This document shows, piece after piece, positions 6,197 to 21,741 of a stretch of 28,299 nucleotides of DNA (positions within the stretch are counted from its first letter, which is position 1; each line of letters starts with the position of its first letter). The translations under genes were made by a program, and so were the position numbers. The stretch comes from a virus. The notes beneath the pieces were generated by a model. The model was not told the origin of the DNA, made no database searches, and saw only the letters and a program-made list of their open reading frames with translations. The DNA is taken from positions 1-28,299 of the IMG/VR virus record IMGVR_UViG_3300020463_000101; one strand, 5' to 3'.

Positions 6197-7588
6197 TCAC
6201 TTTTTCTTGAGTAAGTCTCTGAGTGCCAATCCTTGTAATTTGGTTTCGTCTATACTAGATACTGTGTCGTCCTTGTCTTCTGTGCGTATTGCTGAACTTC
6301 TTTGTAGGTCTGCTACCAGTGTTTTTGTTTGTAGTGTGTCAAAATCTTCGTCATCGTCTTCAAGATCTTCTATTCTCAGTGTTTCTGGATCAAACTTTAA
6401 GTCAACTTTACTGCCTACACCACTACTAGAACGTGTTTTCATAAATTGTATTTGATATCTGCCACGTTCTCTCATGGCATTACTTGTAAATATACCTATT
6501 ACATTATCAGATGTTTGTATTTTACTAATGCCACCAGCAATATGGCTATGGTCAAATTCTATTTCTTCTACAGCACCTCTATTTAACTGCGATGCTGTTA
6601 CTAATAATATGTTTAATTCTACTGCTAAATTACGCAATTCTTCAGACACATACTTGTCCTTAATAAACAAGTCGCTTGGACTAACTTTACCGCTAATTGG
6701 CATCATTAAATCCAGATAATCCAGTAACAATGCGTCTACCTTTACCCCTGTTTGTATCTCATATTCTCTCAAAAACGACCTAATGTCATTGGCATTTATG
6801 CCATTGCTCATCTGTTTTATGCGAAATTTACCAGCACCTTTACCTTTCATACGCACTTTTAAGTCAACATCATCCATGTTTTTCATTACATCTCTAGTTG
6901 CGTAACCACTAACCATAGCATCAATACGCATACTTGATAGTTGTTCACTTAATTCTAAACTAAGATAAACAGTATTAAGTCCTGCTTGGCTCCAATTAAC
7001 ACCTAAGTTCTGTAAGAATAAACTTTTACCAGCACCAGAACCACCAGCAAATACTGTTAGTTCACCTCTATTAAGTCCACCATACAACTTTTGATCAAAC
7101 TTTTTCCAACCTGTGCTAATTGCTCCTGCTTGATCTTTAATCCATTGTAATCTTTCTTTGGGATCTTCATAATAGTCCAAACCAAAATCACTTACAAGTC
7201 CAACTTGACTTGCTTCTTTGATCATTGTTTCGACACTACCGTAATCTTGTTGCTCTAATAAATCTGTGCTGTCTAATATTGCTTTTTCTAATGCTTTGTG
7301 TCTACAAAATGTTTCAAACTCATCCATAAACCAAGACATATGGCTCTCATGTACGTCCTCTACAGGCGTTAATTCAATACCATTTACTGCTTCTAGTTGT
7401 TCTAATGTAGGAATACTGTTATATTTGTTAGCATGGTCTTTTAAAAATGTTACAGCATCTCTAAATTTTCTGTGAAACATGTAAGGTTGTACAATAGTGT
7501 TCACTCTCACAAACACATCTGGATCTGTAACTAAAAATCTCAGAAACAATTCTTGTATATCTTCGCCGTAATCTTTTATTTCACTCAT
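6197..7588 (-). CDS. 41: Replicative DNA helicase, T4 gp41 type (DnaB family)
   Basis: This 463-aa protein has the size and layout of T4 gp41: a helical N-terminal domain (about 1-130) followed by a RecA-like motor. The Walker A motif GGSGAGKS is at 182-189. A Walker B-type strand (ALLLDYLDLM) lies near residue 290, and a DnaB-like SELRNLA/TASQLNR segment follows. gp41 forms the hexamer that unwinds DNA ahead of the T4-type polymerase, moving on the lagging strand with primase gp61. It overlaps the primase gene by four bases (ATGA), so the two primosome subunits are translationally coupled. The C-terminal tail is acidic and then Leu-rich. Confidence 0.95.
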   Translation of the reverse strand: MSEIKDYGEDIQELFLRFLVTDPDVFVRVNTIVQPYMFHRKFRDAVTFLKDHANKYNSIPTLEQLEAVNGIELTPVEDVHESHMSWFMDEFETFCRHKALEKAILDSTDLLEQQDYGSVETMIKEASQVGLVSDFGLDYYEDPKERLQWIKDQAGAISTGWKKFDQKLYGGLNRGELTVFAGGSGAGKSLFLQNLGVNWSQAGLNTVYLSLELSEQLSSMRIDAMVSGYATRDVMKNMDDVDLKVRMKGKGAGKFRIKQMSNGINANDIRSFLREYEIQTGVKVDALLLDYLDLMMPISGKVSPSDLFIKDKYVSEELRNLAVELNILLVTASQLNRGAVEEIEFDHSHIAGGISKIQTSDNVIGIFTSNAMRERGRYQIQFMKTRSSSGVGSKVDLKFDPETLRIEDLEDDDEDFDTLQTKTLVADLQRSSAIRTEDKDDTVSSIDETKLQGLALRDLLKKK

Positions 7589-8574
7589 AACATTTTGCTC
7601 TGTACTTCGATTTTTATCTTATTTGCTATAGCATACTTAATTATACTTGATAAGGTTAATAGTCTGCCATACTTGGTAACCGCATCACCCACATCTTTGA
7701 TATCTGGTTCCCAAGGCGGAAAACTTACTTCCCACCCTAGTTCAGCGGCCTGCCTTATTAATTCTTTTCCTGGTGCGTCTCTGTCAGGACAAAGTATTAC
7801 TCTTTTATTTAACGAATTAATCTGTTGTATCTGCCTATCGTTCATGCTATTACCTAGTACACTAACACCATCTATGAGTATAGCATCAATTACACCTTCT
7901 GTTACTACAACAATCTCTCTATCTGAATATATGTATTTGTCTAAATTGAATACATATCCTGCTTGACTGTTATTAATATACTTGGGTGTTTCTTTAGTAG
8001 GAGGATTTATATGTCTGCCTACATAACCTACCATTTCTTGATTGTAGTAGAAAGGTATAATAAGTCTATTCTTCATCATTAAATCATCACATACAAAAAA
8101 ATCATATTGTGTTTTTAATAGTCCTCTACTGTAAGCATACTCTAATATATCATTATGTGTTTTATTGTAAGGCAGTTTGGGTACATCATTTAAACTAACT
8201 GCGTTAGCAATTTCTACTGGCTTAAATTTTTCATATTTTATTACAATATCGTCGACTTCGTTTTCAAAGTCTTCAATTTTCATAAGTTCTAATACCAGTT
8301 TCTTTACACTTTCGTTGGTTGCTCCTAATTTTACTGCTAAGTCTTTATATTTTTTACCTATCTTTTTACTTGGACTCCACCCTGTTGAGTAACCACAGTT
8401 AAAACAGTTATATGCTATTTTAGGACCAGTCGATATGACACCTGCTCTACCTCTTTTATCGTTACACATAGGACAATTGAATGTGACCCAACCAGCAGGA
8501 GTTTTCTTATGCTTAGGTGGCATATGAGATGTAACTAATTCATGTACCTGTTGTATTGCGTCAGAGTAATCCAT
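7585..8574 (-). CDS. 61: DNA primase, T4 gp61 type
   Basis: The N-terminal zinc-ribbon has CPMC (residues 34-37) and CFNC (57-60). The TOPRIM core follows, with VVVTEGVIDAIL (Glu of motif I) near 224-235 and RVILCPDRDAPG (the DxD-type motif) near 260. The 329-aa length is close to T4 gp61 (342 aa). It makes RNA primers for lagging-strand synthesis in complex with gp41, encoded next. The gene sits behind a sigma70-type promoter whose predicted start falls one base before the ATG; the only ribosome-site candidate is a weak AAGAG too close to the ATG. Confidence 0.95.
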   Translation of the reverse strand: MDYSDAIQQVHELVTSHMPPKHKKTPAGWVTFNCPMCNDKRGRAGVISTGPKIAYNCFNCGYSTGWSPSKKIGKKYKDLAVKLGATNESVKKLVLELMKIEDFENEVDDIVIKYEKFKPVEIANAVSLNDVPKLPYNKTHNDILEYAYSRGLLKTQYDFFVCDDLMMKNRLIIPFYYNQEMVGYVGRHINPPTKETPKYINNSQAGYVFNLDKYIYSDREIVVVTEGVIDAILIDGVSVLGNSMNDRQIQQINSLNKRVILCPDRDAPGKELIRQAAELGWEVSFPPWEPDIKDVGDAVTKYGRLLTLSSIIKYAIANKIKIEVQSKML

Positions 8575-9998: not shown

Positions 9999-10370
9999 AT
10001 GCAGGATCAAAAAGAAATAGAAGAAAACTTTCCTTTCTTCACAATGATTACTTCTGGCGGTAAAGACTACTTTGGAATTGTTCAAAATCAAGATAATACG
10101 GTAACATCTTTTTATGACTATAATAAATTAGGTTCTCCAGAAGAGAAAAAAGAATTCGTATCAATAGCAGAAACTTGGTGGTGGGAATCAAACAGGCAAA
10201 TTCCAATTGATATTTTTCTCTTTAAGGAGATGCAGTCTTTCAGGCGGTGTTTAAGAACATTTAATAATAAAGATGTAGAAATACAGTTTGGACCAGTTAC
10301 CAGTATTCAAAATATTGTAAAGAAAAGAATTAAAAGACGTACTATTCAGTTAGTGAAGAAAGATCAATAA
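9999..10370 (+). CDS. Conserved phage protein (123 aa), the only plus-strand gene
   Basis: The protein begins MQDQKEIEENFPFFTMITSG. It contains GIVQNQDNTVTSFYDYN (about 26-42) and ETWWWESNRQIPIDIFL (58-74), and ends with a basic region VKKRIKRRTIQLVKK. The Trp triplet and the basic end are features I recall from a short protein shared by T4-like marine phages and of unknown function. No enzyme motif is seen. It is divergent from the fibre-like gene and convergent with the DnaE-like gene, overlapping it by 29 bases tail to tail. The ATG lies one base after the predicted late start site. A second ATG at residue 16 has no ribosome site either. Confidence 0.85.
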   Translation: MQDQKEIEENFPFFTMITSGGKDYFGIVQNQDNTVTSFYDYNKLGSPEEKKEFVSIAETWWWESNRQIPIDIFLFKEMQSFRRCLRTFNNKDVEIQFGPVTSIQNIVKKRIKRRTIQLVKKDQ

Positions 10371-10929
10371 CAATTTTATTTAATTGTACAATTATCGCCA
10401 TTGCGTAACTGTATGCATGTGACTTCTTAAAAAAGTATGTATTGTTATCAGGTTTGACCCAAACTTGATCTTCTATCTCTCCCCAAGTTTTACCAACCAA
10501 ATATCTTTTGCCTGGTCTTATCATAGCAAGTATCATTGCCAGTTGATCAATATTTTTAGGTAAATGTTGCAATACTATATCATAGTGATTGCTTATATGA
10601 AATAATTGTTCTACTATTTCTTTGTGACTAAATAGTTCCCACATTGGTTCCATTTTACAAAGATCATCTAACTCACCTTCTGTGCGAATACCTTTGTAAA
10701 CATTATTGTTAAGAACATCTAGTTTAAAATAACCAATGTCTTCTGCTTCTTTGTGATCAATTGTGCTGAGACCAGTAAGTGGATTATGGGGTATAGGCTG
10801 TATATAAACGCCTGTGTTGTGTTTTTCCATACCATCTGGACGTTTGATACTACCCTTTACATGCCTAAGCACAGACAGTAAATTATCGCGGTTAGCCATA
10901 TCAATATCTACATCGAAATCAATCTTCAC
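10342..10929 (-). CDS. Miniature DnaE-like protein (polymerase III alpha core relic)
   Basis: In 195 residues this protein repeats, in order, hallmark segments of the bacterial replicative polymerase DnaE. IDFDVDID (3-10) matches the catalytic PDxDxD palm motif. KHNTGVYI (36-43) matches HASGVVI, GYFKLDVL (66-73) matches GxxKxDFLGL, AMILAMIRPG (131-140) matches the ALxRPG segment, and FFKKSHAYSYAMA (166-178) matches the FNKSHAAAYAL fingers motif. PHP, tau-binding and OB domains are absent and the intervals are greatly shortened. It is the last gene of the uvsW operon, has a GTG start and overlaps the MazG-like gene by 11 bases. T4-like phages replicate with gp43, so its role is unknown. Similar short proteins occur in marine T4-like phages, from memory. 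Confidence 0.8.
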   Translation of the reverse strand: MKIDFDVDIDMANRDNLLSVLRHVKGSIKRPDGMEKHNTGVYIQPIPHNPLTGLSTIDHKEAEDIGYFKLDVLNNNVYKGIRTEGELDDLCKMEPMWELFSHKEIVEQLFHISNHYDIVLQHLPKNIDQLAMILAMIRPGKRYLVGKTWGEIEDQVWVKPDNNTYFFKKSHAYSYAMAIIVQLNKIVIDLSSLTE

Positions 10930-11179
10930 TGAACAATAAACTCCACTTCATTAATTTATCTTTTTTTACTTTGATACGTTCTTGAATTTGTTCTTCGCTT
11001 ACTAGACCACTGTGTTTCATAATATCAATCATACACATTACATCACCTATTTCATCTTGTAGATTTGAAATGTCATGCTCTGTACGGTCATCTTCAAAAC
11101 GTATTAATTTGCTACATGCTTGAATAAGTTCAGCACATTCTTCCATTGTTATTACCAACATTTCTTGTCTTTTATTCAT
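10919..11179 (-). CDS. MazG-like nucleotide pyrophosphohydrolase (86 aa)
   Basis: The helical MazG core is visible: EECAEL (13-18) provides the first ExxE pair and DEIGD (42-46) the second metal-binding group, in the spacing of all-alpha NTP pyrophosphatases. Such enzymes cleave NTPs or dNTPs to the monophosphate and have been linked in phages to nucleotide pool or alarmone control. I chose the ATG at 11179, which overlaps the upstream stop as ATGA and has AGGAG upstream; a TTG two codons earlier is less likely. It is flanked by a small membrane protein and the DnaE-like gene. A second MazG-like protein lies at 15562-15879. Confidence 0.85.
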   Translation of the reverse strand: MNKRQEMLVITMEECAELIQACSKLIRFEDDRTEHDISNLQDEIGDVMCMIDIMKHSGLVSEEQIQERIKVKKDKLMKWSLLFSED

Positions 11180-11340
11180 AACCAACTCCTAATAATATTT
11201 GCTATAATAAAGAAAGCACAAACTACATTTATACCAACAATAAATGTCCTGGCTATTGCTACAGGATCGTCATATTCTTCTGTTTGCTCATCTGAAAAAC
11301 TGCCAATAGCAAATTTCCAAATAGTCCACAGCCTTTTCAT
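11176..11340 (-). CDS. Small single-pass membrane protein (54 aa)
   Basis: A 54-codon frame starts at the ATG overlapping the upstream stop (TAATG) and ends in TGA overlapping the next ATG. The protein starts MKRLWTIWKFAIGSFSDEQT, has an acidic middle (EEYDD), then one hydrophobic segment at about 33-50 (FIVGINVVCAFFIIANII), and ends RSWL. The perfect coupling at both ends and the RLW-IWK/SFSDE pattern, which I recall from T4-like marine phages, make this a real gene. A membrane-localised regulator or superinfection-type protein is possible, but nothing in the sequence fixes the role. Confidence 0.85.
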   Translation of the reverse strand: MKRLWTIWKFAIGSFSDEQTEEYDDPVAIARTFIVGINVVCAFFIIANIIRSWL

Positions 11341-11639: not shown

Positions 11640-12304
11640 AAATCTTTTCCTTTGAAATCTTCTGCTAATGGAAAAATTTTAGCAATTACATCTGCTACAG
11701 CATTTGCTATTTCTATGTGTTCTAATTGTGTGCCATTTGCGCCACGTAATTCAATATAATGTATCCAACTTCTTAGTGTGCCATTTACATACATTCTACT
11801 TAATGTATTGCCTTCTGGTAGTACTGCTCTTGCTTGTTCTTTGGCAATGCCGTTATCAATTGCCCAAAAGTATGCCATTCTGGTCTCTCTAATTATATTT
11901 TCTTGCATTCTTCTCCATTCAGATATAATTTTATAATCATGCTTTTCATCTGCTGGAATACTATTCTGCCTATTTTTAGGATCTTGAAATCTTGCTTGTC
12001 TTACTTCAAAGTCTAAATTATTTGTTGGATCAGCATAACGTTGACTGAACTCTTGGAAACTAAAACTTCGATGTCTTAGTATTTGCCTAGCAATGTCTCT
12101 GGTTGTTTCTATTTCTAAACATGCTGATACCATTTCTAATGGCGACCAGTGTTTGTGTTTCATCAAATACTTTACAAGTTTTTCACTTGTTTCTTTATTG
12201 TTTTGATTACTGGGATTACTTACTCTTGCACAATAGGCTACTAAGTCTAGTGCTGACTCGTTAAAGTCAGGAGCCTGACTGTGACTGATTAATTTTACTT
12301 TCAT
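11636..12304 (-). CDS. thyX: Flavin-dependent thymidylate synthase ThyX
   Basis: The signature RHRSFSFQEFSQR (residues 77-89) matches the ThyX motif RHRx7S. The 222-aa length is typical. The enzyme converts dUMP to dTMP with methylene-THF as carbon donor and FAD/NADPH as reductant, supplying dTTP for an AT-rich genome. The C-terminal region includes LPEGNTLSRMYVNGTLRSW, which carries the conserved Arg residues for dUMP and FAD binding. It overlaps genes on both sides by four bases (ATGA). ThyX is common in T4-like marine phages, in place of the T4 td gene. Confidence 0.95.
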   Translation of the reverse strand: MKVKLISHSQAPDFNESALDLVAYCARVSNPSNQNNKETSEKLVKYLMKHKHWSPLEMVSACLEIETTRDIARQILRHRSFSFQEFSQRYADPTNNLDFEVRQARFQDPKNRQNSIPADEKHDYKIISEWRRMQENIIRETRMAYFWAIDNGIAKEQARAVLPEGNTLSRMYVNGTLRSWIHYIELRGANGTQLEHIEIANAVADVIAKIFPLAEDFKGKDL

Positions 12305-12975
12305 AGGTTTGATGCCTCCACTATGTCTTGTACTAGTTTTACTTCTTCGTTATTTTTTAAAAATATAGTTCTCCAAAAAGTTGGTTCTGCTATATCTTTT
12401 ATTAAGTTTATTTGTTCTTCGTTCAAATTGGCCCATAAGTCCTGTCCGCTTTCGCTTAAGAATACAAGCCATGGCGATATCTTGCCGCCTCTAATATGAT
12501 GTATTGCCAATTGCGGCGACACTTCTCTAAAATAATTATGCCATTCTTTATCTTTTTCGTGTGCCCAATTTTCCATACATTTTATACTTCTCACTATTCC
12601 TCTTTGTGCTGGCTCCTTTTTTATCAGTTGTTTTAAATATATGTCATAGATAGAATCTTTAGTCCAGTCAGAAAGTTTTATACTTTCTCTAATTAAATAT
12701 TCTGCGTAATTTTCTGGTTCTAATAATTCTTCATTAACCATTTTTCGACCAAACTTTACAAATCCAGCATAATATTTGCTTGTAGCAAATTCATCATATG
12801 TTTTTGTTTTGGCATTCTGCATATTCATTTCATAAAACTTTTGATATGTTCTAAATCCTAGTCTTACATGTGATAGATCCTTATCTACAAATCTTCTTTT
12901 TTGAGAACACATATGAACGTTTATTGTTCTTTCAGAAGTAAATTCTCTTCCACAATATTTACATGTAAAACTCAT
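12301..12975 (-). CDS. Zinc-finger conserved phage protein (224 aa)
   Basis: The N-terminus has CKYCGREF...HMC (Cys5, Cys8, His21, Cys23), a C2H2/C2HC-type zinc finger. The rest is charged and helical without a known enzymatic motif, but with conserved-looking segments such as IHHIRGGKISPWLVFLS (about 157-173). The ribosome site is the usual overlap start (ATGA with the upstream stop). A zinc-bearing nucleic-acid-binding accessory protein for replication or transcription would fit the operon, but this is inference. I recall similar proteins in T4-like marine phages without assigned function. Confidence 0.8.
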   Translation of the reverse strand: MSFTCKYCGREFTSERTINVHMCSQKRRFVDKDLSHVRLGFRTYQKFYEMNMQNAKTKTYDEFATSKYYAGFVKFGRKMVNEELLEPENYAEYLIRESIKLSDWTKDSIYDIYLKQLIKKEPAQRGIVRSIKCMENWAHEKDKEWHNYFREVSPQLAIHHIRGGKISPWLVFLSESGQDLWANLNEEQINLIKDIAEPTFWRTIFLKNNEEVKLVQDIVEASNL

Positions 12976-13962: not shown

Positions 13963-14320
13963 ACTTGTATTTTTCCTTCCTATTTTTCTTTCTATAATGC
14001 TTTTTTATTATGTCTTGCTGTGCCCAACGTCTTTTATTATTCTCTCCATTTTCGCCACCCCAACTTACATTAAGACGTTTTTCTTTGGAAGTTTTTTTAA
14101 TCAGTTTCTTTTCCCAATCAAGTGCTTCTTCCATTGTATGAAACTTATTGACCTCTCTTCCTACACATTCATAGTCACATAGTCTTATTGCTTTATACAA
14201 AGGTGACTTACCCACTTGACTACTTTCTATATGCTCTTCTAATCTTATTGATAAGGGTTTTGCTGTATAACCATAATAAACTTTGCCGTCTGGAAAATCT
14301 ATTCTGTAAACTGTAAACAT
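13955..14320 (-). CDS. GIY-YIG nuclease domain protein (121 aa)
   Basis: The N-terminus VYRIDFPDGKVYYGYT (4-19) is the GIY-YIG strand pair. The catalytic Arg is in the following helix (SIRLEEH, R26), and the metal-binding Glu is likely in ALDWEKKLI (67-75). The basic C-terminal tail (KKHYRKKNRKEKYKYD) may bind DNA. The protein is small, like free-standing GIY-YIG homing-type nucleases (Seg family) of T4-like phages, which cut unoccupied sites or rival genomes. It lies between metK and apt and shares overlaps with both, so it is translated within the operon instead of being a free insertion. Confidence 0.85.
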   Translation of the reverse strand: MFTVYRIDFPDGKVYYGYTAKPLSIRLEEHIESSQVGKSPLYKAIRLCDYECVGREVNKFHTMEEALDWEKKLIKKTSKEKRLNVSWGGENGENNKRRWAQQDIIKKHYRKKNRKEKYKYD

Positions 14321-15423
14321 TAGAAAAGATCAACTTGTTCCCATGGCATTGTAGTATTGCCAAAGTGACCATAATTTGTTGTATCTGCTAACTGTATATT
14401 AAATAATTGAAATTTATCAATTATGCCTTTTGGTGTTAGATTAACTGTTTGTTGTATTTCGTACGCCAGGTCCTGTCTTACTACGCCATCAGCATATACA
14501 TATAAACTAGTAGGTTCTTTTACACCAATAGCATAACTTAATTGTACTGTACAATTTCTTGCCTGACCACTTGCTACAATGTTCTTTGCCAAATATCTAG
14601 CCATATATGCCGCTGATCTGTCGACTTTAGTGCAGTCCTTACCTGAAAAAGCACCACCGCCATGTGGAGCATACCCGCCATAAGTATCAACAATAATTTT
14701 TCGTCCAGTAACACCTGTATCTCCATCTGGTCCTCCTATTACAAATTTGCCTGTTGGATTAATCAAATATTCGGTTTCGTGGTTAATTGGAGCACCTGCT
14801 TCTTCCATTGCTGTTATTACCAATTCTTTTATACCGTCTTGTACAGCATTTAAACTAAATTCTTCTGTGTGCTGACTGCTACATACTATTTTAGTTATGT
14901 GTGTAGGAGTATTAATATCTTGATAGTTCATTGTTACCTGTGCTTTGCTGTCAGGACCTAACCACGAATATGATATACGTCTTTCACTTGCTAAGTACTG
15001 TAAAATTTTGTGACTATAATATATAGAACTTGGCATATAATCAGGTGTTTCATCACAAGCATAACCAAACATAAGTCCTTGATCACCTGCCCCAAAGTCA
15101 TCTGTTCCTAATGCTATATCTGGACTTTGCCCATGTAATTCATTGTATATTTTTAGATTCTCCCAATGGAAGCCATCTTGTTCATATCCAATTTCTCTAA
15201 CAGTACCTCTAATAATTTCTTCTATGTGTTCTTTGTTAATTGGTACAGTACTTTTATATTCGCCTGCTACTGTAACCATATTTGTTGTAACTAATGTTTC
15301 AACTGCCGCTCTGTGACTGCTGTTGCCTGCTATAATATAATCAGCAATTCTATCAGATATCTGGTCTGCTATTTTGTCTGGGTGTCCTTCTGATACACTT
15401 TCACTGGTAAACTCGTAACTCAT
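14320..15423 (-). CDS. metK: S-adenosylmethionine synthetase MetK
   Basis: FTSESVSEGHPDKIADQISD (5-24) is the ATP-binding N-terminal signature. GAGDQGLMFGY (111-121) is the PROSITE-type hexapeptide region, and GGGAFSGKDCTKVDRSAAYM (about 256-275) is the phosphate-binding signature. The length of 367 aa is slightly under the bacterial norm of about 384 and no motif is missing. It makes SAM from methionine and ATP. Possible phage uses are DNA or protein methylation (a SET-domain protein is encoded nearby) or compensation for depleted host SAM. It overlaps the GIY-YIG gene as TAATG and follows a small membrane gene by one base. Confidence 0.96.
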   Translation of the reverse strand: MSYEFTSESVSEGHPDKIADQISDRIADYIIAGNSSHRAAVETLVTTNMVTVAGEYKSTVPINKEHIEEIIRGTVREIGYEQDGFHWENLKIYNELHGQSPDIALGTDDFGAGDQGLMFGYACDETPDYMPSSIYYSHKILQYLASERRISYSWLGPDSKAQVTMNYQDINTPTHITKIVCSSQHTEEFSLNAVQDGIKELVITAMEEAGAPINHETEYLINPTGKFVIGGPDGDTGVTGRKIIVDTYGGYAPHGGGAFSGKDCTKVDRSAAYMARYLAKNIVASGQARNCTVQLSYAIGVKEPTSLYVYADGVVRQDLAYEIQQTVNLTPKGIIDKFQLFNIQLADTTNYGHFGNTTMPWEQVDLF

Positions 15424-15562: not shown

Positions 15563-15879
15563 TATTCCTCCTTGACAAAAATGCCATCTATCATTTTACC
15601 TTTACGATCTTTAATATCCATGTATGCTACTGCTAAACATTCTTCAATAGTGATTTTATTTCTTTCCATAATATTAATCATTACCACTAACATATCACCA
15701 ATGTCATCTCTAATATCATTGCCTTTACAAATGTTATCACTTAGTTCGCCCATTTCTTGAATGAGTTTTGCTAACTGATCTTTGTCTGTAGCACCATCAA
15801 TTAAGTTTCTGTCATGATGCCACTGCGTAATCTTAGTAATAAGATGATATGCTGTAGCCATGCCGTCATTGTCTGCCAT
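15562..15879 (-). CDS. mazG: Second MazG-like nucleotide pyrophosphohydrolase (105 aa)
   Basis: The all-alpha MazG signature is present: IQEMGELSDN (40-49) gives the first metal-binding group (ExxE) and DDIGDMLVVMINI (58-70) the second (DxxD in place of ExxD). The 105-aa length matches phage MazG proteins, which are single-domain. The reaction is NTP to NMP plus PPi. Compared with the second copy at 10919-11179 it has an additional N-terminal segment and a different core, so the two are not recent duplicates. It is flanked by a kinase-nucleotidyltransferase fusion and a small membrane protein that overlaps its stop. Confidence 0.88.
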   Translation of the reverse strand: MADNDGMATAYHLITKITQWHHDRNLIDGATDKDQLAKLIQEMGELSDNICKGNDIRDDIGDMLVVMINIMERNKITIEECLAVAYMDIKDRKGKMIDGIFVKEE

Positions 15880-16655
15880 TATAATTTTCCTTCTTCTCTC
15901 ATTTGTTCACGTATTTTGGTAGCACTGATATCGTGTATAGCATCGTCAAAAACTTCTTGCTCAATTTTATATCCAACATCTCTACCATACGTTATGTTTA
16001 AGAGGTTTGGTACAACCTCTATCTTTACTTTACCAGCAAATTTATATAAACTTTGTTGTAAGTTTTCTATAACTTCATGTGCTGGAAAAGGATTCTTTTC
16101 ATCAGTTGGCATATCTCTAACCATTAAAAACACTTGATTGTGTTTAGCCAATGCTCTATCGAACAATGCTTGGTGTCCAGGATGCCAGGGTTGAAATCTT
16201 CCAAGCATTTGTGTAGTGGGTGCCTGGTTATCCCATATAAATCTTTGTCCAATTTCATAAGCAATTATTTTAGCATCTACATCACCACGTTGTTCGTGTA
16301 TATTGTAGTCTGTTGCTATTGGTCTTTCAAATACTTTATTAGTATCTTCAAATCTACCTGCTTCTATTGTGTCTACAAATATTTCATAGTCAGCAAAGAA
16401 TTTATTTCTTGCACTTTCAAATGGTGCTACAAAATCTGCCATGGCAATCTTGCCTTCTAATTCAGCATTTATACATAAATCAATCATTCGTTGATTTTGC
16501 CTTAATCTACCTTCTTCAGAAAAGTCCCAGTCGTCTGCTTCTTCTCTAACTTTATCTGCGTTGAACCAGGCAACTTTATCACCTAGGTATTCAACCAGTC
16601 TTTCTGCCAAGTAAGTTTTTCCACTACCCGGTAATCCAAAAATTAATACTCTCAT
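15879..16655 (-). CDS. Kinase-nucleotidyltransferase fusion (APS-kinase-like plus HxGH)
   Basis: The N-terminal half (about 1-140) is a P-loop kinase close to the APS kinase/CysC type: GLPGSGKT (7-14), FNADKVREE (31-39), DWDFSEEGRLRQNQRMIDLC and MADFVAPFESAR (72-83). The C-terminal half is an HxGH nucleotidyltransferase: GRFQPWHPGH (152-161), an FLMVRD strand and ISATKIREQM (243-252), like the NMN adenylyltransferase ISSTxxR motif. The order, kinase then nucleotidyltransferase, is opposite to NadR. The substrate cannot be fixed: NAD salvage, PAPS or another cofactor or nucleotide modification are possible. A sulfotransferase-like gene in the same window makes a PAPS link attractive. The start overlaps the upstream stop as ATGA. 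Confidence 0.85.
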   Translation of the reverse strand: MRVLIFGLPGSGKTYLAERLVEYLGDKVAWFNADKVREEADDWDFSEEGRLRQNQRMIDLCINAELEGKIAMADFVAPFESARNKFFADYEIFVDTIEAGRFEDTNKVFERPIATDYNIHEQRGDVDAKIIAYEIGQRFIWDNQAPTTQMLGRFQPWHPGHQALFDRALAKHNQVFLMVRDMPTDEKNPFPAHEVIENLQQSLYKFAGKVKIEVVPNLLNITYGRDVGYKIEQEVFDDAIHDISATKIREQMREEGKL

Positions 16656-19739: not shown

Positions 19740-19768
19740 ATTATACATTTAAACATACAAATTGTCAA
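19740..19768 (-). promoter_or_regulatory. Consensus sigma70 promoter for uvsW operon
   Basis: On the minus strand TTGACA (19763-19768) and TATAAT (19740-19745) are both perfect and separated by 17 bases. The start is expected near 19733, one base before the uvsW ATG (19732). The promoter overlaps the short gap after the glycosyltransferase-like gene. Confidence 0.9.
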
Positions 19769-20819
19769 TCTGTTTAAGTATATTTCCTATTGTTTTTTTG
19801 TGTTGTTGTTCATTCAAAAATACTGATTGATTATATTCTAATTTTTCTTTAATTAAATTATAATCTATTCCTTCTTTGCTTATCATGTTTACTTGATCTA
19901 ATAATTTTAGCCACCTTTCTTCGGGTGCTTCTTTACTATCAAAATCATAGTCCCAAATTTCGTCATATAATTCAAAACCTAAATAATCTTTTAAGTTTTT
20001 GTGATATTCAAAATCTGATATAGACACAAAAGGATGATTGTTAAAAATGGGTTTGAATGTTTTTTCTGTTGGAAAGAAAGAGTTATTAAACGACTGTAAT
20101 GGCATTGAGCCTTCGTTGGCATCATTATTAGCAGAACTTTCTGTAACCAAATTAAAATATGTATTTTCAAACCAACTATTTTTATAATCGTTATCCCAAG
20201 TAACTCCGTCGTTTGTATCTTTAATATCATCAGGCAGAGTAATAGTAGGATAACCTTCGAAAATACTGCCATGGTGTCTATTATGGAAACTAAAAATTGC
20301 TTCTTGTATTAAATCATTTTCCATACAGTAATTATACACAAATCTTCTTCCTGGTTTGTTTACACCATTAAGGCATAAAAAAGATTTTTTATCTGATAGT
20401 AAATGTTCGTTAAATGTCACAGGTGTCTTATTAAATTCATATTTTAATAAGCCATATGATTGCAACATGAAATAGGGTACTGTTATTACTTCTCCAAAGT
20501 GGTTGTGGCTTTCCATTAATAAATTTGAAGTGAGTAAAGTGGTTGTAGTTGTAAAACCACAGTCATGAAATTTTTGTACATTTGCTTCGTACATTGAATC
20601 TACAATTACATGTACGTCATTTGTATTAAGATATTCAATATATTTTGCAAATTCTACTTTGGGGTTATTATTTAAACCGTTAACAACCACAATATAATTT
20701 TTATCAATTAATTCTTTAAGTTTATCTAGGGAAGTTACTAACTCAATATTAATCGAGTCTTCAACAATTAACTGAAAACGATTTAATGACGTGCCTCCTA
20801 TAGTTGCTATATTATACAT
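19749..20819 (-). CDS. Glycosyltransferase-like protein (356 aa)
   Basis: FFPTEKTFKPIFNNHPFVSIS (from residue 248) resembles the donor-binding motif TEKxxxxxxxGxxPVxxG seen in GT10-like and exostosin-like glycosyltransferases and in phage proteins of that kind. A second typical segment is FLCLNGVNKPGRRFVYNYC (147-165). The remainder (N-terminal 1-140) is alpha/beta without a P-loop. Such phage proteins are usually assigned to sugar transfer onto virion or host glycans. It overlaps the preceding gene by 8 bases and is followed by the uvsW promoter. The donor and acceptor cannot be deduced. Confidence 0.65.
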   Translation of the reverse strand: MYNIATIGGTSLNRFQLIVEDSINIELVTSLDKLKELIDKNYIVVVNGLNNNPKVEFAKYIEYLNTNDVHVIVDSMYEANVQKFHDCGFTTTTTLLTSNLLMESHNHFGEVITVPYFMLQSYGLLKYEFNKTPVTFNEHLLSDKKSFLCLNGVNKPGRRFVYNYCMENDLIQEAIFSFHNRHHGSIFEGYPTITLPDDIKDTNDGVTWDNDYKNSWFENTYFNLVTESSANNDANEGSMPLQSFNNSFFPTEKTFKPIFNNHPFVSISDFEYHKNLKDYLGFELYDEIWDYDFDSKEAPEERWLKLLDQVNMISKEGIDYNLIKEKLEYNQSVFLNEQQHKKTIGNILKQIDNLYV

Positions 20820-21741
20820 CTGCTACCAGTGTTTTTAAAATTTCAACACTAATGCTATTAGCAGGTGTTGTATATAACCTTCCATACGATAAACTTGTCC
20901 CTGTATCTTCAGAGCAAGGTAAAAACACACTTAGTTCTTCTGTGGTTGCTATTGGTCCAAATCCAATAATATCTACACCTAATAATTCAAAGTTAGAAGC
21001 ATTTAATAATTCTTTATAGGAGCATTGTTTATACACATATCCGTCTATGTCATGTACTGCTTTTACAATTTCTTCATTAACTTCTACTTCTTCGGGAATA
21101 ATTATTCCAGCAATAAACTCGTCTGATACGTCGCAGTGATTTTTTATATTGTCAATATCAAGTTTATTATCTACACAATTTACTGGCAGTGAAACTGTCT
21201 TTGTTTGTTCTAATGCTCTAATTGTTTCTATGTCTGTATTATTGGTTGTAATTATACAGTCTTTAAAATATTCGCTATTGTGTAGATGTGATTCTCTCAT
21301 AACTAAAATAGCATTTAGTTTATCTGTAAAAGAATTACCTGATTGACAATCTATGCCGTAATAGTTTGAAGTTTGTAGAAACTTTTTTGCTAGTGTTTTA
21401 TATTCTGATATATACTGATCTTTTAATGTTGATTCAATTGGTATAGAAAAATTTTGGTCTTGATAGTTTATTTCAATAGAATCGTCATTGTAAAATATGT
21501 GTACAACACTATCTTTAATTTTTAATTTAGTGTCATCTGTAATAACATACGGAAACCATTTGAAATATGATTTAAAAATTAAGTTACTTACAGGATCTAG
21601 ATTAATTTTTACAATATTATCTTCATTAAGATACTCAGATAAATTATCCTTGAATGTGTTTAATAGTGTTTGTACTGAGGTTATAGAGAGATGTCTTCCA
21701 TTCCCGCTGTTCTCAATTTCACTATGTGACCTATCTGCCAT
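20812..21741 (-). CDS. Conserved phage protein (309 aa), C-terminal half perhaps aminotransferase-like
   Basis: The start codon lies inside uvsY: the overlap is 61 bases, long for this tightly packed genome, but the frame is open and no later start codon is found before residue 148. The N-terminal half (1-150) is unclassified. The C-terminal half (about 160-275: CIITTNNTDIETIRALEQ... and GVDIIGFGPIATTE) has the strand-helix order of class V aminotransferases/cysteine desulfurases, but the catalytic Lys, His and Asp are not evident. If related, it would be a degenerate, inactive form. The pairing with a glycosyltransferase-like gene suggests a shared role, unproven. Confidence 0.65.
   Translation of the reverse strand: MADRSHSEIENSGNGRHLSITSVQTLLNTFKDNLSEYLNEDNIVKINLDPVSNLIFKSYFKWFPYVITDDTKLKIKDSVVHIFYNDDSIEINYQDQNFSIPIESTLKDQYISEYKTLAKKFLQTSNYYGIDCQSGNSFTDKLNAILVMRESHLHNSEYFKDCIITTNNTDIETIRALEQTKTVSLPVNCVDNKLDIDNIKNHCDVSDEFIAGIIIPEEVEVNEEIVKAVHDIDGYVYKQCSYKELLNASNFELLGVDIIGFGPIATTEELSVFLPCSEDTGTSLSYGRLYTTPANSISVEILKTLVADV

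Follow-up and report, generated by a model that had tools for sequence, protein, structure and literature searches.

A viral homologue of the bacterial replicase DnaE, predicted to form the C-terminal half of a minimal, two-part family C DNA polymerase

Introduction

The closest described relatives of the protein studied here are the split, minimal DNA polymerase III (Pol III) alpha subunits that Iyer et al. 2021 (PMC7824862) predicted in group 2.2 jumbo phages. In the passages of that work devoted to these proteins, the enzyme is described as an N-terminal, NTP-binding protein and a C-terminal, Mg- and template-binding protein, whose genes lie far apart in genomes that also have a family B polymerase, and this simple form is suggested to lie close to the ancestral Pol III core. 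Single genes have been labelled in genome reports, with the CBB genome paper naming a truncated Pol III alpha (CBB_328, 172 aa) and the Atu_ph07 genome paper naming gp316 as a subunit, Pol III alpha. In cyanobacteria, too, DnaE is described as the product of two genes (PMC3919608), and in this respect it resembles the phage pair. The PHROGs families of the two phage proteins, phrog_11127 for the N-terminal protein and phrog_11778 for the C-terminal one (hereafter the N-half and the C-half), are both labelled 'DNA polymerase', names that are silent on their being halves of one enzyme.

Here we analyse a C-half gene within a 28,299-base virus record, the whole of which is referred to below as the window. 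An initial annotation of this DNA had described the gene product as a miniature of the DnaE active-site region and knew of no characterised function for such proteins. That holds as far as experiments are concerned, as we found no report of a laboratory test of a split miniature Pol III in the open-licence literature (a study elsewhere is possible), nor any mention there of phrog_11778 by name; a description nevertheless exists, in the passages of Iyer et al. 2021 (PMC7824862) cited above. The concept of a split miniature Pol III is already published, and what is new here is a member from a further clade. To this we add a map of how the halves tile DnaE, statistics on their homology and on the pairing of their genes, a confident predicted fold and evidence of selection.

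Results

A DnaE-like protein among replication and recombination genes

The C-half gene (10342..10929, minus strand; phrog_11778) codes for 195 aa from a GTG start, a choice backed by two relatives that have ATG at the equivalent position (loci L002 and L012). Five segments resembling DnaE motifs had been pointed out in this ORF by the initial annotation, and all were found, in order, at residues 4-178: DFDVDID (4-10), KHNTGVYI (36-43), GYFKLDVL (66-73), AMILAMIRPG (131-140) and FKKSHAYSYAMA (167-178). In an alignment with E. coli DnaE, D6 corresponds to D401, D8 to D403, K69 to K553 and D71 to D555, where D401, D403 and D555 are the catalytic carboxylates of the E. coli enzyme. The first two of these, together with an invariant D10, are encoded by the DVDID codons for residues 6-10 (10900..10914, minus strand), which, counted from the GTG at 10929, lie at the extreme N-terminus of the chain; the equivalents of K553 and of the third carboxylate, D555, lie in the K-L-D codons for residues 69-71 (10717..10725, minus strand). 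Further along the chain, RP at 138-139 corresponds to the RPG motif of DnaE and FKKSH at 167-171 to FNKSHS. Bacterial DnaE and the C-half therefore share the palm carboxylates, the K553 equivalent, KHxxGV, RPG and FxKSH in the same order.

Immediately upstream lies an ORF for a MazG-like nucleotide pyrophosphohydrolase (10919..11185, minus strand), which we regard as context and not as part of the enzyme; its end overlaps the start of the C-half by 11 bases, suggesting that the two form one operon. On the other side, a small convergent ORF of 123 aa (phrog_11637; 9999..10370, plus strand), likewise context, overlaps the 3' end of the C-half gene by 29 bases. A convergent ORF is found in the same place in the phages Atu_ph07, GAP32, PAC2 and 121Q, with sequence similarity shown for the first three. 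This convergent ORF is better conserved than the C-half itself, with up to 97% identity to relatives while synonymous sites are near saturation, and with pN/pS of about 0.03 among the rows listed.

The window as a whole encodes a DnaB/gp41-like helicase, a DnaG-like primase, ThyX, homologues of UvsW, UvsY and UvsX, and a T4-type terminase, and gene order near the C-half resembles that of the jumbo phages Atu_ph07, GAP32, PAC2 and 121Q (286-490 kb). When set against these four phages, the conserved neighbourhood comprises UvsY, UvsW, a C2H2 protein, the C-half, the convergent ORF, the primase (7585..8574, minus strand) and the gp41/DnaB-like replicative helicase (6197..7588, minus strand), with UvsY and UvsX compared only where the stretches from the named phages extended far enough. 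The C2H2 zinc-finger-like protein (phrog_11058; 12301-12975, minus strand) has homologues upstream of the C-half in all four reference phages. Two ORFs between UvsY and UvsW (19749-21741, minus strand) gave no Pfam or PHROGs match at the limits used; a DnaQ-like exonuclease gene lies between UvsY and UvsW in 121Q and just before UvsW in GAP32. The window also codes for an S-adenosylmethionine synthetase with all three Pfam domains (14320-15423, minus strand), which falls in a PHROGs family of unknown function (phrog_1569), and for an apparent fusion of an APS kinase-like P-loop kinase to a cytidylyltransferase-like domain (15879-16655, minus strand). PADLOC, consulted for a role in a defence system, gave no match for the C-half protein or for two neighbours.

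Profile comparisons establish homology to bacterial Pol III alpha

Searches with the single C-half sequence did not retrieve DnaE: there was no match among Pfam families at E up to 1 or in NCBIfam, and neither of the two phmmer matches in the PDB was DnaE. In PHROGs, the protein matches phrog_11778 over residues 4-188 (1.6e-63), while the long 'DNA polymerase' family phrog_405 matches at just 0.014. In INPHARED, 66 records match at E up to 10, with 61 of these covering at least 80% of the query. Identity is 65-88% to the contigs of the window's own clade, and 37-55% to the copies in named phages and to other contigs.

Homology became clear once profiles were compared. With hhalign, a profile of 28 C-half representatives matched a DnaE profile, built from 25 sequences of E. 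coli, further bacteria and two phages, at a P value of 7.7e-7, a probability of 91.7 and a score of 58.9, far above the peak of 28.5 among 100 column shuffles and the 16.8 obtained with a reversed profile. This local match spans E. coli residues 508-643 only; the DxD and KSH segments are collinear outside it and fall into register when the N-half is joined to the C-half (see below). Other profile searches gave weaker results. A self-built DnaE HMM recovered the best family member with an E value of 6.7e-5 in a set of 103 sequences, members of the window clade mostly lying above 0.01; an HMM of nine family sequences found five chains in the PDB, all of them Pol III alpha, at E values of 1.1-2.6; and at E up to 1, 58 of 73 family members hit the Pfam family DNA_pol3_finger (best 4.1e-4), the window protein not being one of them. 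Together, these comparisons show that the window protein and bacterial Pol III alpha (DnaE) are homologues.

The predicted fold of the C-half is that of a DnaE palm and fingers

An AlphaFold 2 model of the C-half (73 window and locus sequences) had a mean pLDDT of 90.9 and a pTM of 0.73. In a Foldseek search of 350,542 PDB chains with this model, the top ten were all Pol III alpha; the best reached an E value of 2.6e-3 and a probability of 1.00, no match fell under 1e-3, and the first chain of an unrelated protein appeared at 0.21. VIA-align 2 superimposed 192 residues on 3e0d (Taq alpha) at Z 10.2 and 3.2 A; for the superposition of the C-half on residues 397-781 of E. coli alpha, Z was 8.7 at 3.8 A. 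On this scale background commonly reaches Z 7-8, and about 13 for helical models, so that a Z of 10-12 is just moderately above it. Since such background values are common, the weight of the match lies in the gap to unrelated structures (the first unrelated chain has Z 3.6) and in full-length coverage, which amounts to 188-193 C-half residues in 11 Pol III alpha rows. All high-scoring rows belong to family C. At the level of the fold, the model thus has a Pol-beta-like palm and DnaE fingers, and the relationship to DnaE proposed in the initial annotation is borne out by profile comparison and by structural superposition alike.

Compared with bacterial DnaE, the C-half is strongly compressed. 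As had been noted from the sequence, nothing beyond palm and fingers is kept: D10 and H37 are separated by 27 residues, against 106 in the thumb region of E. coli DnaE, and the mid-fingers interval (139-167) is 28 residues, against 116 in E. coli, which include the RRAMGKKK stretch. The chain ends shortly past the KSH helix, leaving no room for the PHP, OB and C-terminal domains, and the thumb, the (HhH)2 element and the clamp-binding motif are absent. Because it is without all of these, we treat the C-half as a homologue and half-core of family C and not as a complete member.

A separate N-half gene completes the tiling of the DnaE core

The C-half carries Mg ligands and template-side motifs, and is without an NTP-binding loop; G[RK]GS is absent from every frame of at least 50 aa in the window. 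The idea of a stand-alone miniature enzyme accordingly had to be given up, as the first part of the palm, with its GRGS loop, is missing from this chain and is supplied in relatives by a separate gene. PF07733 detects this short N-half gene above cut-off in all four named phages (121Q, GAP32, PAC2 and Atu_ph07, where it is gp316), and all four products match phrog_11127; the same search found no N-half in six of six window-clade fragments of 50-130 kb (10 records searched altogether). The product of about 170 aa ends in GRGS...LDVNEFLK, equivalent to E. coli 361-393, and a stop codon follows. The N-half of CBB bears the annotation Pol III alpha and can be aligned along all 172 query residues, and CBB_328 is for this reason very probably the N-half.

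Profile and structure comparisons place the N-half on DnaE as well. Its profile matches the DnaE profile with a P value of 1.2e-8 and a score of 72.2 (shuffles at most 24.2). In its model (pLDDT 83.4), residues 79-172 align to the Pol III alpha structure 5lew at Z 12.2, and the match to E. coli 279-394 has Z 10.2, with family C making up 16 of the 17 rows; the first 75 or so residues are uncovered by the structure matches listed. N-half and C-half thereby cover successive stretches of E. coli DnaE, about 279-394 and about 397-781 respectively, the N-half ending at about 394 and the C-half starting at about 397, just before the catalytic DxD strand, so that DVDID directly follows the break point. 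When the two halves from 16 genomes were joined, they aligned with DnaE across 356 columns (P 1.9e-14), with GRGS, DxDxD, KHxxGV, KxD, RPG and FxKSH all in register. The profiles of the two halves have no similarity to each other.

Across 84 N-half ORFs from named phages and IMG/VR contigs (71 distinct), GRGS is present in every one, none has DxDxD after it, and none is fused to a C-half. An intein or frameshift origin of the split was considered and set aside on this evidence, since all 84 stop within 0-9 residues of the FLK that closes the DnaE-like sequence (62 of them directly), which leaves no room for an intein. This sets the phage pair apart from cyanobacterial DnaE, whose halves are spliced to a full-length protein and whose break lies near the KSH motif. 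Taking sequence and structural models together, it is close to certain that the window protein represents the C-terminal one of two halves into which a minimal Pol III alpha is split. It corresponds to the C-terminal protein in the pertinent passages of Iyer et al. 2021 (PMC7824862), a family identity that rests on their description, and differs from the phages treated there in belonging to a separate clade of contigs, in which the N-half was not found.

In the four named phages, the distance between the two genes is about 31 kb or greater. In both 121Q and Atu_ph07 an annotated clamp loader comes four genes after the N-half, and in PAC2 an AAA protein comes three genes after it; Vibrio phage 2.275 has its next P-loop protein eight genes further along.

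The two halves are nearly constantly paired in long genomes

An N-half is present in 59 of the 60 listed phage records with a C-half (63 in all, three of them not listed), the exception being PP728206, a record of 109.5 kb. In IMG/VR, we searched 26 of 80 N-half loci for the C-half: 13 were positive, including 11 of 11 records of at least 300 kb, and the 13 in which no C-half was found were all below 250 kb. The reverse search, on 18 records with a C-half, found the N-half in five of five records of at least 200 kb, one of four of 109-199 kb and none of eight smaller ones; one bacterial metagenome-assembled genome (MAG) within this set that holds a C-half contig also has the N-half. These counts are not independent, because several of the records duplicate phages of the INPHARED list. 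Contigs below 200 kb often carry one half alone. In genomes long enough to judge, the genes for the two halves are nearly constantly paired. Distances between N-halves and between C-halves correlate at 0.97 across 16 genomes, a value that shared descent alone would give and that we do not count as evidence.

The window clade is known here from fragments only. No N-half was found in the 28-kb window, in 17 contigs of its clade (five of which were re-searched with a larger profile) or at 80 C-half loci, where the best matches, attributable to chance, had E values of 0.27-0.98. In this clade, the N-half is either on sequence that is missing or really absent. The longest contig (G001, 130 kb) resembles none of the N-half regions of four reference phages, so that the N-half region may simply be missing from it.

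These data bear on the reading that the C-half acts by itself, as a metal-dependent DNA-binding factor or a homodimeric transferase, while the N-half has a separate job. The high confidence of the isolated C-half model and the distance between the two genes speak for it, but on DnaE the C-half takes up where the N-half leaves off, and it has no triphosphate loop and is accompanied by the N-half gene in nearly all long records, making independent action very unlikely.

Homologues were also sought in cells. A pattern-limited scan of 84,980 genomes returned five C-half loci in four assemblies, all titled MAG, two of which have the N-half. These loci look like jumbo-phage contigs binned with bacteria, and we read them as such and not as cellular homologues. 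Three such contigs, of 335, 90 and 153 kb (L198, L199 and L201), are filed under Neomarinimicrobiota and Methylophilaceae MAGs, and the same assemblies carry the N-half.

Catalytic residues are invariant and the C-half is under purifying selection

In 204 of 204 C-half sequences (155 distinct), the residues D6, D8, D10, K69, D71, R138, P139, K141, K168, H171 and Y175 do not vary, although part of this invariance, notably that of DxD, was selected for, because the search patterns by which loci were fetched included DxD and, in a single scan, GYFK. Against close relatives, dN/dS of the C-half is 0.074-0.101 (12 of 80 comparisons listed), similar to the 0.074-0.140 of ThyX (12 of 42 listed). The C-half is thus under strong purifying selection.

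It had been suggested that the protein might be a catalytically dead relic, turned into a clamp- or template-binding module, or a decoy of the host replisome. Its extreme reduction would fit such a role, and other phage proteins are known to interfere with host replication. Yet the catalytic aspartates are invariant and dN/dS is about 0.1, which contradicts a relic, and the parts through which cellular alpha contacts the clamp, tau and epsilon lie outside the retained stretch (397-781), leaving the decoy without support. We regard either role as very unlikely.

Other polymerases and exonucleases in the same genomes

That a family B polymerase would be found alongside was anticipated from the T4-like character of the phage, and proved true of the larger genomes of the C-half family: one is present in nine of 12 records, including nine of nine of at least 259 kb, and was not found in three window-clade fragments (61-130 kb). 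In Atu_ph07, PAC2 and an IMG/VR contig (G021), the family B polymerase occupies two separate open frames, so that both polymerases look split; the relevant part of the MIJ3 paper describes a split PolB with an intein. A DnaQ-like proofreading exonuclease as an obligate partner of the pair was likewise considered and is unsupported: PF00929 occurs in just five of 11 records (the four reference phages and G021), and was not found in five large records that have both halves, nor in G001.

Discussion

The reading that we consider probable is that the C-half is the part that carries the metal ligands and fingers in a family C nucleotidyltransferase composed of two proteins, acting as a short-patch helper beside the family B polymerase. 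The suggestion of a small nucleotidyltransferase in the initial annotation comes close to this, with the difference that the enzyme would be made of two proteins and not one. Its activity and role we infer as follows. The two chains would assemble into one palm without being covalently joined, with the incoming nucleotide's triphosphate held by the GRGS loop of the N-half, two magnesium ions held by D6, D8 and D71 of the C-half with the assistance of K69, and the remaining fingers (IRP-K and the FKKSH helix) placing the template and the nucleotide. As the thumb, clamp-binding and exonuclease parts are lacking, the pair is expected to be a distributive, short-patch enzyme of low processivity that works beside the gp43-like family B polymerase. 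Its probable sites of action would be recombination intermediates, gaps and freshly primed ends, where it may help in recombination-dependent replication, fill gaps or process ends, because the C-half gene lies among genes for primase, helicase, UvsW, UvsY and UvsX, and the N-half gene near the clamp loader. Two points weigh against this reading: the N-half was not found in the window or its closest relatives, and the loss of the thumb and mid-fingers leaves the DNA binding of the pair unexplained.

The loss of these parts invites another reading, in which the two halves form a nucleotidyltransferase that retains Pol-beta-like chemistry and no longer copies DNA, being instead template-independent or RNA-directed, and serving in end repair, tailing or on some other substrate. 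The carboxylates and the GRGS loop are kept while the thumb and much of the fingers are gone, and the larger genomes already possess a gp43-like polymerase, both of which speak for this reading. However, R138, P139, K168 and H171 of the fingers are as invariant as the metal ligands, which suggests that the handling of both nucleotide and template is retained, and the gene sits among replication and recombination genes; we therefore think a non-copying enzyme unlikely, albeit worth bearing in mind.

Returning to the templated, short-patch polymerase that we prefer, the pair differs from bacterial DnaE in comprising about 365 aa in two chains, against 1160 in one. It is a tentative proposal of ours, which may well prove wrong, that no smaller form of family C chemistry is known than this pair: thumb-less and clamp-less, with an active site assembled only in trans, it would serve next to a family B replicase as a polymerase specialised in short patches or end processing, and would represent either an extreme reduction or a near-ancestral core.

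An active pair would reveal how small a part of the bacterial replicase suffices for catalysis, and would be a natural polymerase with its active site divided between two separately encoded chains. The capability of an ancestral Pol III core would then be directly testable with two small proteins, and a widespread group of jumbo phages would carry polymerases of two unrelated families.
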